Assembly (NCBI GenBank): GCA_025965195.1
Contig: JAOPXK010000026.1
Span: forward strand, 1 to 48,935
DNA length: 48,935 bases
Origin: Marmoricola sp.
GTDB lineage: Bacteria; Actinomycetota; Actinomycetes; Propionibacteriales; Nocardioidaceae
Direction: 5' to 3'
The position numbers and the translations under genes were made by a program. The notes below the pieces were generated by a model. The model was not told where the DNA came from, searched no databases, and worked only from the letters and a program-made list of their open reading frames with translations. Shown here one piece after another: positions 10,350 to 47,656 of the stretch (position 1 is its first letter; every line of letters begins with the position of its first letter).

Positions 10350-11411
10350 ATGCGGATTCGTCGTACGGCGACAGTGAGCGTGCTCGCCGTCCTGGCCGTG
10401 ATGCTGATGTCCTTCGGTCAGGCCGCGATCGCCGAGCAGAAGCCGTTCGCCCCGCTGAACCGGCCGGGTCCGAAGCTGAGCGTCAAGACGGCCACGCTGA
10501 AGGCGGCGCTGAAGTGCAGCGGTTCATTCACCGCCAACAAGCTCGAACCCGTGCTGCTCAGCCCGGGCACCGGCACCACGCCGGACCAGAACTTCTCCTG
10601 GAACTACGAGCGTGCGTTCACCGCACAGCACCGGCCCTGGTGCGCGGTGACGATGCCACATCACGCGCTCGGCGAGATGCAGAGCGCGGGGGAGTACCTC
10701 GTCTACGGGATCCGCACGATGCACGCGAAAGCGCATCGCCGGATCGCGATCCTCGGCCACAGCCAGGGCGGCATGTCGATGCGCTGGGCGCTGAGGTTCT
10801 GGCCGGACACCCGGCCGATGGTCGACGACGTGATCGGGCTCGCCGGTGACAACCACGGCACCACGGTCGTCAGCGGGCTCTGCAACCCGGGGAAGGGCAA
10901 GTGCACGCCCGCCCAGTGGCAGCAGACCAGTACGGCGAACTACGTCAAGGCGATGAACAGCCGGGCCGAGACGTTCGCCGGCATCTCCTACACGGAGGTC
11001 TTCAGCCACACCGACGAGGTCGTGCAGCCCAACCTGACCGACCAGGACTCCACGAGCGCGCTGCACACGGGGAAGGGCCGGATCACGAACGTGTCGACCC
11101 AGGACATCTGTCCCCTCGACGTCAACGAGCACCTGCTCATCGGCACGATCGACCCGGCGGCGTACGCCCTCTCGATGGACGCGCTCACCCACGACGGGCC
11201 CGCGAAGCCCGCACGGATCAGCCGCTCGGTCTGCGCTCAGGTCTACCAGCCCGGCGTCGATCCCCTCGAGGCCAACACCTATCTGCAGATCATCGCCGTA
11301 CTCCCCGGACTGCTCAGCGTCTCCCTGCCCGGGATCAACCTCGTCGGTGCCCCCGAAGTCTCCAACGAACCCACCCTCCGCTGCTATGTGTACTCCGACC
11401 GTTGTCGTTGA
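10350..11411 (+). CDS. Secreted CalB-like lipase
   Basis: Predicted exported alpha/beta-hydrolase of 353 residues acting on lipid esters. A signal peptide covers about 1-29 (MRIRRTATV, hydrophobic core, AIA-EQ). The catalytic triad can be assigned as Ser138 in GHSQGG (136-141), Asp222 in HTDEVVQP, and His261 in DVNEHLL. The TDEVVQP motif closely resembles that of Candida antarctica lipase B, so that family is the best match. Six cysteines after the signal peptide could form disulfides. The stop codon TGA (11409-11411) lies inside the first 22-bp unit of an intergenic repeat, which may have altered the native C-terminus. Confidence 0.85.
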   Translation: MRIRRTATVSVLAVLAVMLMSFGQAAIAEQKPFAPLNRPGPKLSVKTATLKAALKCSGSFTANKLEPVLLSPGTGTTPDQNFSWNYERAFTAQHRPWCAVTMPHHALGEMQSAGEYLVYGIRTMHAKAHRRIAILGHSQGGMSMRWALRFWPDTRPMVDDVIGLAGDNHGTTVVSGLCNPGKGKCTPAQWQQTSTANYVKAMNSRAETFAGISYTEVFSHTDEVVQPNLTDQDSTSALHTGKGRITNVSTQDICPLDVNEHLLIGTIDPAAYALSMDALTHDGPAKPARISRSVCAQVYQPGVDPLEANTYLQIIAVLPGLLSVSLPGINLVGAPEVSNEPTLRCYVYSDRCR

Positions 11412-11525
11412 GTTGGGCCGCAATCACCGTTGAGTTGTGCTCGCGTCACGGTTCAGTTGTGCCTGCGTGACATTAGGGCCGCAATTGCGGCGCAACTCAA
11501 CGGTGACCAAGGCCCAACTCAACGA
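11405..11525. repeat. 22-bp-unit inverted array, copy 1
   Basis: Tandem 22-bp units with the core CGTTGAGTTG start at 11405, 11427 and 11449, followed by units in inverted orientation. The arms 11405-11437 and 11493-11525 pair as 15 bp, a 4-base internal mismatch, then 14 bp. The 55-base loop holds the palindrome CCGCAATTGCGG (11479-11490). The left end contains the lipase stop codon; the right end is 1 bp from the -10 box of the next gene. It is related to 28927-29070. Confidence 0.9.
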
Positions 11526-11526
11526 C

Positions 11527-11532
11527 TAGGTT
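11527..11532 (+). promoter_or_regulatory. -10 box for leaderless catalase-like gene
   Basis: TAGGTT, 6 bases before ATG 11539. The -35 region, about 18 bp upstream, falls within the right arm of the 22-bp repeat array. Confidence 0.55.
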
Positions 11533-11538
11533 GCGAGG

Positions 11539-12420
11539 ATGCTGGATCCCGAGAGTGCCATTGACCAGATCAACGCGGCGTTCGGAAAGCCGAAGGGCTA
11601 CCGGACGTTGCACGCCAAGGGTCGGTTCTACACCGGCACGTTCACGGCGACGCCTGAGGCGGGCGACCTCGGCAGCGCCCTGCACCTGCAGGGTCCACCA
11701 GTCCCGGTCGTCGTGCGGTGGTCCAACGGCGGCGGCAATCCGCACCACCCCGACGGTGCCACCGACGTACGCGGGATGGCAGTGTCGTTCCGGCTTCCCG
11801 ATGGCACCGCGACCGACCTGCTCGGCCAGACGGCTCCTCGATTTCCGGTGCGTACGCCGGAGGCCTTCGTCGAGCTCGTGAAGGCAGCGAACAAGCCCTA
11901 CCTCCTGCCGGTGTTCCTGGCCAGGCACCCGAGTGCGGTGCCCGCGATGATTGCCAATGCCAGGGCGAAGTCGATCGCAGCGCCTGCCAGCTATGCGGAC
12001 GCGACCTTCTACCCGGTACACGCCTACAAGTGGCTCGCGGCCGACAAGACGGCATCCTGGGTTCGCTACACCTTCGTGCCGCAAGCCGGCGAGAGCCCGG
12101 GAGTCTTCACGGGCGCCGACCGGCTGCAGGACGAGATGGCCGCGCGGCTCCAGAGGGGTCCGGTCCGGCACACGATGCGGGTCCAGGTCGCAGGCCCGGC
12201 GGATGACCCACACGACCCGATGTCGGTCTGGTCCTCGTCGGCCCGGGTCTTCGATGCCGGCACGATCGAGGTGACCGCCCTCGATCCCGATCGCGAGAAG
12301 GACGGCGCGATCTTCGTCTTCGACCCGGCGCGCATCGTCACCGGCATCGAGCTCTCCGGCGACCCGATCCTGCGCTACCGGCCAGGGGCGTACACCGCCT
12401 CGGTGAACCGACGGGTCTGA
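11539..12420 (+). CDS. Catalase-related heme protein (small catalase-like family)
   Basis: A 293-residue member of the small catalase-related (SrpA-like) family; probably a heme peroxidase that uses peroxide with an organic substrate rather than a full catalase. Visible family signs are the distal histidine region LHAKGRFYTGTF (His25), RWSNGGG, TDVRGMAVSF, and a C-terminal RPGAY matching the RxxxY proximal heme-ligand motif (Tyr285). It has no signal peptide. Full catalases are about 480 residues or longer, so this is the compact form, not a truncation. It is preceded by an intergenic hairpin array and followed 31 bp later by purD. Confidence 0.82.
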   Translation: MLDPESAIDQINAAFGKPKGYRTLHAKGRFYTGTFTATPEAGDLGSALHLQGPPVPVVVRWSNGGGNPHHPDGATDVRGMAVSFRLPDGTATDLLGQTAPRFPVRTPEAFVELVKAANKPYLLPVFLARHPSAVPAMIANARAKSIAAPASYADATFYPVHAYKWLAADKTASWVRYTFVPQAGESPGVFTGADRLQDEMAARLQRGPVRHTMRVQVAGPADDPHDPMSVWSSSARVFDAGTIEVTALDPDREKDGAIFVFDPARIVTGIELSGDPILRYRPGAYTASVNRRV

Positions 12421-23855: not shown

Positions 23856-24523
23856 GGATCGGGGTCGTCACCTTCCCCGGCTCGCTCGACGATGCGGATG
23901 CCCGTCGCGCCGTACGCATGGCTGGCGGGGAGGCCGTCGCGCTGTGGCACGGCGACCATGACCTCAAGGGCGTCGACGGCGTACTCCTTCCGGGCGGGTT
24001 TTCCTACGGCGACTACCTCCGCTGTGGCGCCATCGCCCGCTTTGCGCCGGTGATGACCGAGGTCGTCGATGCCGCTCGCGGCGGGATGCCCGTGCTCGGC
24101 ATCTGCAACGGTTTCCAGATCCTGTGTGAGTCGCACCTGCTGCCCGGCGCGCTGATCCGCAACGACCATCGCAAGTTCGGCTGCCTCGACCAGGTCGTGC
24201 GCATCGAGAACAACAAGACCGCCTGGACCACGGCGTACGACGAGGGCGACGAGATCACCATCGTGCTCAAGAACGGCGAGGGTTCCTACGTCGCCGACGA
24301 GGCCACCCTCGATCTGCTCGAGGGCGAGGGCCGGGTGGTTGCGCGCTACCTGGGCAACCCCAACGGCTCGCAGCGGGCGATTGCCGGGATCAGCAACGAA
24401 GCCGGCAACGTCGTCGGCCTGATGCCGCACCCCGAGCACGCCGTCGAGGACCTCTGCGGCCCCGGCACCGACGGACTCGGCTTCTTCACCTCGGTCCTCA
24501 CCACCCTCGCCAATTCCCGATAG
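23852..24523 (+). CDS. purQ: FGAM synthetase glutaminase subunit PurQ
   Basis: Class I glutamine amidotransferase that supplies ammonia to PurL. The 223 residues have the nucleophile elbow GICNGFQ (Cys85) and the His-Glu pair in [13 protein letters not shown] 23852 overlaps the purS stop by four bases. The stop codon TAG at 24521-24523 lies inside the left arm of a very long palindromic terminator. Confidence 0.96.
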
Positions 24524-24581
24524 TCCGCCACGAAAAGCACCGTTTCGGGGTCTCGTACGGTGCTTTTCGTGGCGGACTATC
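24519..24581. terminator. Perfect 25-bp stem bidirectional terminator
   Basis: Arms 24519-24543 and 24557-24581 are exact reverse complements, with a 13-base loop. AAAAGC and GCTTTT in the stem give U-rich tracts in both directions. It separates the convergent purQ and DUF1906 genes, and purQ's stop is in the left arm. Such a perfect stem is longer than ordinary terminators. Confidence 0.85.
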
Positions 24582-26311: not shown

Positions 26312-28576
26312 GTGCCCGAACGCTCTGCTCTCGACACCGTTTCCGTTGCATCCACCGACCCCGATCGCGAGCAGCCGTGGGCTGAGCTCGGTCTGAAGGC
26401 CGACGAGTACGCCCGGATCCGCGAGATCCTCGGCCGCCGTCCGACGAGCTCCGAGCTGGCGATGTACTCCGTGATGTGGAGCGAGCACTGCTCGTACAAG
26501 TCGAGCAAGGTGCACCTCAAGCAGTTCGCAGAGATCAACATCGCTGTTCCTCCCGACGCGCCAGGCAAGATGCTCGCCGGCATCGGTGAGAACGCCGGCG
26601 TGATCGACATCGGTCAGGGCTACGCGGTCACCTTCAAGGTCGAGTCGCACAACCACCCGTCGTACGTCGAGCCCTACCAGGGTGCGGCCACCGGAGTCGG
26701 CGGCATCGTCCGCGACATCCTGGCGATGGGCGCTCGTCCCGTGGCGGTGATGGACCCGCTGCGCTTCGGCCCGCTCGACGCCGCCGACACGCATCGGGTG
26801 ATGCCCGGGATCGTGGCCGGTGTCGGTGGTTACGGCAACTGCCTCGGGCTGCCGAACATCGGTGGCGAAGCGGTCTTCGACGCGTCGTACGCCGGGAACC
26901 CGCTGGTCAACGCGCTCTGTATCGGCGTACTCCGCCATGAGGACCTGCACCTCGCGAAGGCGAGCGGTGTCGGCAACCTGGTGATCCTGTACGGCGCCCG
27001 CACCGGCGGCGACGGGATCGGTGGCGTCTCGGTGCTCGCTTCGGAGACCTTTGAGTCCACGGGTCCGGCGAAACGACCGAGTGTGCAGGTAGGCGACCCG
27101 TTCCAGGAGAAGCTGCTGATCGAGTGCACGCTGGAGATCTTCGCCGCCGGTCTGGTGGCCGGCATCCAGGACCTCGGTGGTGCCGGGCTCTCGTGTGCGA
27201 CCTCCGAGCTGGCGTCTGCCGGCGACGGCGGCATGCGCGTCGAGCTCGACAAGGTGCCGCTGCGCGACTCGACGCTCGCGCCCGAAGAGATCCTGATGAG
27301 CGAGTCGCAGGAGCGGATGATGGCGGTCGTCGAGCCGGCCGACGTCGATGCGTTCATGGCGATCTGCGCGAAGTGGGACGTCGAGGCCGTGGTCGTCGGC
27401 GAGGTCACCGACGGCGACCACCTGCAGATCGACTGGCACGGCCAGCGGGTCGTCGACGTACCTCCTCGCTCGGTGGCGCACGACGGTCCGACGTACGACC
27501 GGCCGTTCGCGCGACCGTCGTGGCAGGACGCCCTGCAGGCCGACGGCGCCGAGAAGCTTGCCCGGCCGTCGACCGGTGCCGAGCTCAAGGCGACCCTGCT
27601 GCAGCTCGTCGCCAGCCCGAACCTCTGTGACAAGTCGTGGATCACCGACCAGTACGACCGCTACGTGCAGGGCAACACCGTCCTCGCCCAGCCTTCCGAC
27701 AGCGGCATGATCCGGGTGGACGACGAGACCAACCTCGGTGTCGCGGTGTCGACCGACTGCAACGGCCGGTTCGCCAAGCTCGACCCGTACGCCGGCGCGC
27801 AGCTCGCGCTCGTCGAGTCCTACCGCAACGTCGCCGCCGGTGGGGCCGTTCCGCTCGCGATCAGCGACTGCCTGAACTTCGGCTCGCCCGAGGACCCCGA
27901 TGTGATGTGGCAGTTCGCCGAGGCCTGCCGTGGCCTCAAGGACGCCTGCATCACGCTGGGGATCCCGGTCACCGGCGGCAACGTCAGTCTCTACAACCAG
28001 ACCGGTCAGACCGCGATCCTGCCGACGCCGGTCGTGGCCGTGCTCGGCGTGATCCAGGACGTCACCCGTCGTACGCCGACCGGCTTCGCCTCCGCAGGCG
28101 AGCAGATCTTCCTGCTCGGGTCGACGCAGGAAGAGCTCTCGGGATCGGAGTGGGCGAACGTCGTACACGGACACCTGGGTGGTCTTCCGCCTCGGGTGGA
28201 TCTGGCGGCCGAGAAGGCGCTTGGGTCGATGCTCGTCGAGGGTGTCGGCCTGCTCACCTCCTCGCACGACCTGTCCGACGGCGGCCTCGCGCAGACGCTG
28301 GCCGAGTGCTGCCTCAGGCACGGTGTCGGCGGGTCCGTGCAGCTCGAGGGCGACGCCTTCATCGGCCTCTTCTCCGAGTCGGCCGCCCGGGTCGTGGTGA
28401 CCGTCAAGCCGGCGGATGCTGACCGGCTGACGGACCTGGCGGCGAGGTACGGCGTACCGCTGACCGCTCTCGGTCAGACCGGCGGCACCGGCTTGGTCGT
28501 CGAGGGCTCGTTCGAGATTGCGGTCGAGGACCTGCGGGCCGCCTGGACGGCCACCATCCCTGCCGCCATGGCCTGA
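26312..28576 (+). CDS. purL: FGAM synthetase catalytic subunit PurL
   Basis: Converts FGAR plus ammonia to FGAM using ATP; this is the small PurL form (754 residues) that needs PurS and PurQ, both encoded just upstream. Recognisable blocks are [70 protein letters not shown] and [12 protein letters not shown]-like [17 protein letters not shown] 26312 follows a -10 box with leaderless spacing. The stop overlaps the following SCP-like gene by one base. Confidence 0.97.
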
Positions 28577-28926
28577 TGGCCGCGCGACTGACTCCCGCGG
28601 ACCCGTTGCTGGTGGCCGAGGCTCTCGCGCGCCAGCCGCGAACGCCTGCTGACCTCCGGCTGCTGACCAAGCATTTCCTTGCCCTGCTTGAGGATCGAGC
28701 CCCTGGGCACTCGGTCGAGGTGCGCGTCCCGCCGTACGCCGCGGTGCAGGTCATCCCCGGCGTACGCCACACCAGGGGTACGCCGCCGGCCGTGATCGAG
28801 ACCGACGCCAACACCTGGATCGCCCTCGCGACCGGTGAGCTCAGCTGGGACCAGGCCCACGCCGACGGCTCCGTCCGCGCCAGCGGCGAACGTACCAACC
28901 TCACCTCCTACCTCCCCCTCACCTGA
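28576..28926 (+). CDS. Sterol carrier (SCP2-like) family protein
   Basis: A 116-residue protein resembling the actinobacterial sterol carrier family member found next to purL and purF in mycobacteria (Rv0807 type, from memory). The segment SVEVRVPPYAAVQVIPGVRHTRGTPPAVIETDANTWIALATGELSW has the beta-rich SCP2 pattern ending in W-x-ALATG. It is translationally coupled to purL through TGATG. A lipid-binding role is family knowledge; why it travels with purine genes is unknown. The 22-bp repeat array begins immediately after its stop. Confidence 0.8.
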   Translation: MAARLTPADPLLVAEALARQPRTPADLRLLTKHFLALLEDRAPGHSVEVRVPPYAAVQVIPGVRHTRGTPPAVIETDANTWIALATGELSWDQAHADGSVRASGERTNLTSYLPLT

Positions 28927-29070
28927 CCCGTTGACTTGGGTCTCCATCACCGTTGACTTGGGTGCTGGTCACTGTTGAGTTGGGCCCCGGTCACCGTTGA
29001 CTTGCGCCTCCGGTCCGCAGGTAGGTAATGGAGGCCCAACTCAACCGTGATTTAGACCCAACTCAACGGG
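28927..29070. repeat. 22-bp-unit inverted array, copy 2
   Basis: Four tandem 22-bp units with the core CGTTGACTTGGG or TGTTGAGTTGGG start at about 28928, 28950, 28972 and 28994, and two inverted units (CCCAACTCAAC) close the array. GCGCCTCC and GGAGGC flank the loop. The array starts one base after an SCP-like gene and ends 4 bp before the -10 box of the M20 peptidase. It has the same architecture as 11405-11525 but different unit sequences, with GACTTG dominating in the left arm. Confidence 0.9.
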
Positions 29071-29074
29071 TGGC

Positions 29075-47319: not shown

Positions 47320-47369
47320 GGCTCCCGCGGTCAGCGCCGTCGAGACCGGATGGTCAAGGCGGCGTACGT

Positions 47370-47538
47370 TGCGAGGCCGGTCTTCGGACTTCCCGTCGAC
47401 ATCGCCGATCGCCTTCCCAGGCCGGTGAGCCCAGTGGCTGCGCCGAAGCGCGTGACCGGCGACTCGGGGTCACCGCAGCGGGCCCTGCGCCGGAGTCTCA
47501 CCGGCTTCCCGATTCTCCCCAGGACGGGGCACCTCGCA
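47370..47538 (-). promoter_or_regulatory. Cobalamin riboswitch upstream of bluB
   Basis: Read on the minus strand, a P1 helix forms from TGCGAGG (47532-47538) and CCTCGCA (47370-47376). Between them the conserved elements occur in order: GGTGCC, GGGAAGCCGGTG, TCCGGCGCAGGGCCCGC, CGGTGA, GCCACTGGG, GGGAAGGC, and the B12-box region GAAGTCCGAAGACCGGCC (as GGGAAGTCCGAAGACC). The aptamer ends 54 bases before GTG 47316. A GCGG-GAG-CCGC mini-hairpin encloses the GGGAG ribosome binding site, so translational control is plausible. Together with the rest of 47317-47656, no other gene is seen here. Confidence 0.88.
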
Positions 47539-47656
47539 GGTCATGCCGTCACCGAGCCTAGGCGGTCACGTTCGAGAACCTGGCCGCTGGGTACCCGTTC
47601 GACGAGCGCACGCTGCGCCGGTGCCCAGCCGAACCGGGGAACGACCAGGAGGAATC

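Follow-up and report, generated by a model that had tools for sequence, protein, structure and literature searches.

Background

Among described systems, REP/BIME elements and REPINs with their RAYT ('REPtrons') come close to the elements studied here: as outlined in the reports cited, they are inverted-paired short extragenic repeats, often located near stop codons or between convergent genes, their repeats flank the enzyme gene, and repeat and enzyme co-evolve (PMC8266576, PMC3733652, PMC8049555). Orphan repeats are known for REPs as well: according to the account in PMC8049555, REPINs persist, in smaller numbers, in E. coli genomes that have no RAYT. A further group, the CGTC-tagged REPs without known transposase, is characterized in the relevant parts of PMC3733652 as extragenic, with convergent and unidirectional contexts and with conv-REPs at most 20 bp from 3' ends.

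EDxHD (Vsr-like) homing endonucleases, e.g., I-Bth0305I, provide a case of a Vsr-like domain in a nuclease that is tied to a mobile sequence. Mycobacterial MIRU are actinobacterial short repeats that are said to insert at stop codons; they are not known to have facing phased arrays or a nuclease-bearing version. In the AbiE type IV toxin-antitoxin setting, AbiEi and Rv2827c are reported to bind 23-bp inverted repeats (PMC7319586).

The locus presented here lies in a window of 48,935 nucleotides, i.e., the whole stretch of DNA that was analysed, and consists of tandem 22-bp units followed by the same units inverted, at 11406-11524 of the window. Judging from its dispersal and from its association with a nuclease gene, both of which are read from sequence, the array is quite probably the non-autonomous ('empty') form of a mobile element that encodes a nuclease, which would have a REP/RAYT-like way of working with an unrelated enzyme and whose movement we infer.

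Unlike in REPtrons, the enzyme is an AbiEi-type winged helix (wHTH) plus a Vsr-like nuclease and not a Y1 HUH transposase, and the units, which measure 21-22 or 31-32 bp, are repeated in phased tandem arrays. The tag letters of the CGTC-tagged REPs are partly similar to ours (CGTC/CGTT), but those REPs are single or paired palindromes of 20-40 bp from Proteobacteria, Chlorobi, Bacteroidetes, Spirochaetes and Thermotogae, and the portion of PMC3733652 devoted to them describes no such nuclease gene. In contrast to EDxHD homing endonucleases, no intron or intein was seen, the ends are repeat arrays, and many copies are gene-free. The N-terminal domain resembles the AbiEi antitoxin; unlike in AbiE, however, the nuclease domain is part of the same protein and the arrays are dispersed genome-wide. 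Searches of the open-access literature brought up no recognisable description of these arrays or of their link to DUF559 proteins.

Anatomy of the Array and Its Second Copy

The forward arm (11406-11471, + strand) contains exact CGTTGAGTTG cores at 11406 and 11428 and a third, degenerate unit GGTTCAGTTG at 11450. It is followed by a short loop (11472-11480), the place at which nuclease-bearing versions elsewhere carry the nuclease gene, and by the inverted arm (11481-11524, - strand) with two 22-bp units, whose cores are located at 11493-11502 and 11515-11524. A first-pass annotation had described such an inverted array of 22-bp units, with 33-base arms at 11405-11437 and 11493-11525, a palindrome, and a lipase stop codon supplied by the array. 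All of this was recovered: 29 of the 33 arm positions match, the palindrome CCGCAATTGCGG is present and starts at 11479, and the TGA of the lipase-like gene is that of the first unit, ending at 11411. The right end had further been placed at a -10 box; a scan by consensus only returned no sigma-70-like site within 11200-11700.

The upstream host gene (10350-11411, + strand) encodes a lipase-like protein with Pfam matches to Palm_thioest and Lipase_2, which are below cutoff. Its stop codon (11409-11411, + strand) is read from the CGT TGA of the first unit, and the protein terminates in ..RCR* here versus ..GC* in the six closest orthologues (L225-L230; 60-66% identity). By this comparison it looks as if the array gave the lipase-like gene a new stop codon. 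The downstream host gene, encoding a catalase-related protein (11539-12420, + strand), is co-directional with the lipase-like gene, and its ATG (11539) follows 14 nt past the array end.

Allowing at most one mismatch, the core matches 12 times in the window, the two copies summed, versus 2.04 expected and a maximum of 6 in 100 shuffles. The second copy (28926-29071) is composed of forward units at 28929, 28951, 28973, and 28995 and inverted cores at 29037-29046 and 29059-29068; its first core begins 2 nt past the stop of the ORF at 28576-28926. For the units of this genome, the conserved pattern is linear and reads roughly CGTTGAGTTGGGYC, four variable bases, TYAC. At one position of the core, both G and C occur (GAG/GAC), in these units as well as in those of genome G186, a hint of reader tolerance.

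Hairpin Structure and Possible RNA-Level Function

When the RNA of 11400-11535 was folded, as had been suggested for this locus, a very stable structure of -80.5 kcal/mol (z = -9.05) was obtained. Such a fold would suit arrays that are functional 3'-end elements under selection, be it as terminators, mRNA 3' stabilisers or convergent-gene insulators, with the nuclease gene merely being located among them. However, no intrinsic terminator (GC hairpin plus T tract) was found by consensus scan in 11200-11700, in line with the first-pass annotation, which had spoken of no normal terminator, and no covariation links the two arms of a locus. Among 19 two-armed loci of this genome, spacer matches within the locus amount to 294 of 456, compared to a shuffled mean of 306.4 (p = 0.96). 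Because arms within one locus match no better than arms between loci, the long hairpin is a by-product.

Base-pair covariation was likewise absent from within the units of this genome, in which mutual information mainly reflects neighbour effects; on visual inspection, the units of certain other species appear self-complementary. A structured cis-RNA, formerly one of the options for this locus, was rejected, since paired positions covary neither between arms nor within own-genome units.

An Rfam scan of the window returned only a cobalamin riboswitch (47358-47551, - strand, 96.1 bits) and a tRNA. At 24519-24581 of the window, a perfect 25-nt inverted repeat encloses a 13-nt loop. A similar hairpin (GATAGTCCG..AAGCACCG) is located directly 3' of ispG in genome G010 (L204), and for this reason the former may be another dispersed 3'-end hairpin.

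Dispersal of the Arrays

In the own genome, the two-unit pattern reveals 85 matches at up to 3 mismatches, which were grouped by eye into about 30 loci, most of them with inverted units behind the tandem ones; the reversed control gave 45, and these may overlap real units. Six of the 24 genomes of the genus, the own one included, match at up to 2 mismatches. At family level, the generalised core CGTYGAGT with 22-bp spacing is found in 46 of 294 genomes, while the remaining 14 bases of the unit are species-specific.

A three-unit scan over named genomes yielded at least 119 stretches. Of those listed, 91 originate from Nocardioides, Nocardioidaceae or Propionibacteriales records. The other 28 belong to more distant organisms, among them Azospirillum, Bacteroidales, Verrucomicrobia, and haloarchaea; they yielded no homologue of the nuclease and were treated as background tandem repeats. 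Viral contigs contributed 2 matches. Several 22-bp arrays with the core CGTCGAGTT and varying spacers occur in the Bacteroidales MAG RUG12391 (L095, L121, L154, L170), possibly as a parallel case or as background tandem repeats. Further 22-bp arrays, with the core CGTTGAGTCACA, were observed at L110, L168, and L184, which belong to two Azospirillum genomes and one Verrucomicrobia assembly.

Could each array have expanded locally, as tandem repeat or quasi-palindrome, by replication slippage at its junction, such that the shared core is a common motif and not a product of dispersal? Unit numbers do vary between orthologous copies (e.g., 4+7, 15+6, 3+3), and some arrays hold near-identical units. 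Yet one unit recurs at the roughly 30 loci of this genome and gives hundreds of matches in some other genomes, and the arms of one locus are no more alike than those of different loci, which makes this explanation very improbable.

If the arrays were REP/BIME elements and a RAYT (Y1) transposase moved them, the similar location, the inverted pairing and the conserved tag with a species-specific remainder would fit. We give this possibility hardly any credence: a match to Y1_Tnp (PF01797) was obtained in none of the 24 genomes of the genus, whereas 5 of 14 control genomes were positive, and the own-genome units lack the internal base-pair covariation. At the search sensitivity used, RAYT-moved REPs are thus refuted for this genus.

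Position at Stop Codons and Array-Free Junctions

The genomic context was counted for 134 elements from Nocardioides and related loci; duplicates and elements less than 150 nt from a locus end were dropped, and the 28 stretches from other organisms were left out. Two arms within 130 nt are present in 44 of the 134, and all of these face inward and none outward. Across several species, 99 of 124 stop-side array ends map to -10 to 15 nt from the stop codon, with a median of 2 nt, compared to a median of 86 nt for the start-side ends (n = 70). For co-directional sites, 32 of 40 are at most 15 nt away from the stop versus 15.1 expected under a crude random placement. Lone arrays are mostly oriented like the preceding gene (33 vs. 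6 and 28 vs. 10).

This sense polarity and closeness to stop codons, as well as the location of 24 of the 44 two-armed copies between convergent genes, fits the 3'-end function introduced above. We nevertheless consider that function unlikely, since the same junctions are array-free in relatives. The convergent ispG junction measures 195 nt and is array-filled here, while it spans -8 to 20 nt and is array-free in each of the 12 relatives with the same convergent neighbour, whose identity in these relatives is 31-42%; 10 other loci have no neighbour match and are uninformative. On this comparison of sequences, the array at the ispG junction is an insertion. The TldD junction holds 142 nt of element here and is array-free, at -4 to 96 nt, in five relatives; in L257 it measures 130 nt and matches just partially on the right-hand side, in G023 its place is taken by a different 21-bp array, and in the remaining loci the neighbour is absent or distant. 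A third junction was compared in eight genomes of another clade, with flanks 90-95% identical to the query genome (72 and 85% in G272). Six of the eight contain arrays of 89-362 nt, and two are array-free with 23 and 30 nt. The array of G283 at this junction belongs to a different repeat family and resembles the unit beside the nuclease of that genome (L446).

The first-pass annotation had proposed a dispersed, non-autonomous element, and had reserved the reading as a local regulatory structure for an array that is confined to this site and the second copy and fully conserved in all relatives. Its recurrence in this genome, at about 30 loci, the array-free orthologous junctions revealed by the syntenic comparison it had recommended, and the nuclease-bearing long versions all speak for the dispersed element.

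The Nuclease Gene Inside Long Versions

In long versions, the loop gene encodes an AbiEi-like winged helix combined with a Vsr-like nuclease (MTES_1575/DUF559). Homologues of the protein encoded at L054:2789-3691 (- strand) were identified in 6 of about 160 array-bearing loci, which had been fetched because of their arrays, and all six directly adjoin arrays. Four of them have arrays on both sides; L104 ends at a contig edge, and the upstream array of L096 is degenerate as judged by eye. In another locus of the own genome (L055, 2478-3416), a 286-aa ORF without Pfam match is located between two facing half arrays, and the nuclease query has no match there.

The own nuclease element, L054, bears the same units as the dispersed arrays of its genome, and terminal inverted repeats are common to both, as would be the case for a classical MITE/IS-derived element. 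Unlike for such an element, the search for a target-site duplication, proposed earlier for this array, ended without one: the 44 two-armed copies show no clear excess of direct repeats.

At E-values up to 0.1, MTES_1575 and DUF559 match all six homologues. The own protein scores 37.6 of 38.2 for MTES_1575, just under the curated cut-off, and 22.3 of 20.6 for DUF559, just over it. AbiEi_4 matches four of the six at E up to 0.1, the own protein being under the cut-off, and the AbiEi model of PADLOC matches all six. The nuclease part gives a weak profile match (E = 0.095) to PDB 3r3p, 'Mobile intron protein', which we take to be I-Bth0305I. E200, D232, E243, and H250, presumably the EDxHD positions, are invariant in 70 of 70 nuclease proteins, and on account of this conservation the enzyme seems to be kept active. 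The MTES_1575 domain is referred to as a Vsr-type REase in the pertinent section of PMC3710099.

An AbiEi-like N-terminus together with units of 21-22 bp also raises the question whether the arrays are operators, by which the AbiEi-like domain represses its own gene, with the dispersed arrays being a regulon or decoy sites and not products of transposition. According to PMC7319586, the promoters of both AbiEi and Rv2827c contain 23-bp inverted repeats to which the respective protein binds, two in the case of AbiEi and two pairs in that of Rv2827c. However, our arrays are also present 3' of the nuclease stop, the dispersed ones map to 3' ends and not to promoters (see the stop-side and start-side medians above), and array presence differs between orthologous junctions. 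Operators are hence a rather doubtful explanation.

Of 50 nuclease loci, 38 have the element between convergent host genes, whereas in control loci 53 of 180 pairs of adjacent genes are convergent. Only right-hand neighbours were used for comparing sites, and not the 31 pairs of neighbours counted automatically, as some left-hand neighbours are antisense ORFs due to strand errors of the gene caller. They fall into up to 20 homology clusters, the largest of which (14 loci) is situated at the 3' end of one gene. The flank of L304 ends with a gene end also seen at other sites, and in G212 two related copies of the nuclease occupy separate sites. The location of the nuclease element is often the same among related genomes, which suggests that movement is slow or infrequent.

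Association of Arrays with the Nuclease

A profile built from the six proteins reaches at least 300 bits in 90 of the 294 family genomes. Of 122 places at this score, 70 were fetched, namely the 30 best, 20 hand-picked at 369-381 bits, and 20 more at 319-376 bits; L291 was dropped for its short flanks, so that 69 loci (49 + 20) were scored. In this set, which was assembled without selection for arrays, 67 of 69 loci (47/49 + 20/20) are accompanied by a tandem array on one side or on both, and 55 (39 + 16) on both. Of 67 control genes, i.e., relatives of ispG, the lipase, and TldD, 14 give a tandem signal on a single flank and none on both flanks; five loci were dropped for short flanks, and one control reached an inverted score of at least 40. 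One-sided arrays are therefore weak evidence. No significant array was detected at two of the 49 loci (L304, L306). Within the 49-locus set, the period is 21, 22 or 42-44 in 83 of 86 significant flanks.

A sister group of nucleases at 250-287 bits, represented by 20 hand-picked loci, has arrays at 15 of 20 loci and on both sides at 10. Here, the period is 31-32 in 22 of 25 significant flanks; one locus, L331, has 22-bp arrays. In 8 of the 20 sister-group loci (L326-L345), a host gene ending in ..(D/E)(I/L/V)IF precedes.

On the level of genomes, the nuclease (at least 300 bits) is present in 36 of 46 array-positive genomes versus 54 of 248 others (p = 3e-13, from lists compiled by hand). With 8 nuclease candidates scored per genome, 10 of the 46 array-positive genomes have no nuclease above 300 bits, or 5 of 33 (G005, G018, G176, G270, G274) among those with at least three array matches. 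Conversely, 54 genomes contain the nuclease and no CGTYGAGT array; the nuclease flanks were inspected for part of these. In a sample of the phylum, homologues at E up to 1e-25 occur in 29 of 396 genomes, the own one included, and 4 of the 28 loci scored have arrays on both flanks. Outside the family, L347 displays inward-facing 21-bp units GTTGACCGTGCGTCCCAAACC.

Co-Diversification and Prediction of Dispersed Arrays

Mapped onto the tree of 69 nucleases, unit length requires 11 changes, whereas shuffling gives a mean of 32.3 and none out of 200 shuffles is as low. The upstream and downstream flanks of the same nuclease resemble each other with a mean score of 64, compared to 21-28 between loci for proteins of less than 75% identity and 47 for the seven closer nuclease pairs. 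The more identical two nuclease proteins are, the more alike are their arrays (Mantel r = 0.26, a value reached in 0 of 2000 permutations).

The units at the nuclease flanks predict dispersed arrays elsewhere in the same genome. G186 is negative for CGTYGAGT, and the 21-bp unit taken from its nuclease flank gives 53 matches in this genome, none in the reversed control, and one in eight other genomes; 14 of the 23 arrays so predicted begin at most 20 nt from a stop codon on the same strand. A unit derived from the nuclease flanks of G243, G263, and G229 yields 222, 277, and 82 matches in the respective genomes and none in the control. The same pattern is also found in G249, G247, and G283, with 349, 91, and 72 matches, where the fetched nucleases (L321, L464, and L446, respectively) are flanked by another unit; only a second nuclease of G249, L451, has a unit similar to this pattern. 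These exceptions imply that repeat families and nucleases are not one-to-one within a genome. The dispersed units are not best matched to the flanks of the fetched nuclease in 5 of 15 genomes (G031, G011, G182, G161, G197), matches close to nuclease genes having been excluded by eye. A 3'-end function would leave both the tight nuclease link and these predictions unexplained.

A Model for the Elements and Its Implications

In the model that we propose, the full element extends from the stop codon of a host gene through a forward array of 21-22-bp units, a leader of about 100 bp, the gene for a nuclease of about 300 aa, and an inverted array, up to the stop codon of the convergent gene. Dispersed copies such as the one in the window have one or both arrays but not the gene. 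On either arm, the winged-helix part would bind the helically phased units side by side in a row. Cutting of DNA by the nuclease part would then allow the element to be copied or moved, its targets being short gaps 3' of stop codons, for the most part those that separate convergent genes. A protein-binding role is consistent with unit lengths near two or three helical turns that follow the nuclease phylogeny. What we infer is the binding, the cutting, the roles of mover and moved, and any advantage for the host.

On the wider scale, we lean towards a new class of bacterial mobile elements, in which a Vsr-like nuclease with an AbiEi-type reader recognises phased arrays and spreads them behind stop codons; a unit would correspond to two helical turns in one subfamily and to three in the other. 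Array and reader would drift together and thereby give rise to species-private repeats. Distant relatives of the same layout exist outside the family, as in L347.

If this holds true, a family of actinobacterial proteins that can be identified by no more than a DUF559 or AbiEi-like match would serve to mobilise dispersed DNA, and the REP/RAYT way of life would have been invented a second time, independently, by an unrelated enzyme. It would account for the short arrays at gene 3' ends in relatives of Nocardioides, with up to 349 pattern matches per genome, and would offer many natural pairs of reader and array, with units of 21, 22, 31, and 32 bp, for the study of how DNA specificity co-evolves.
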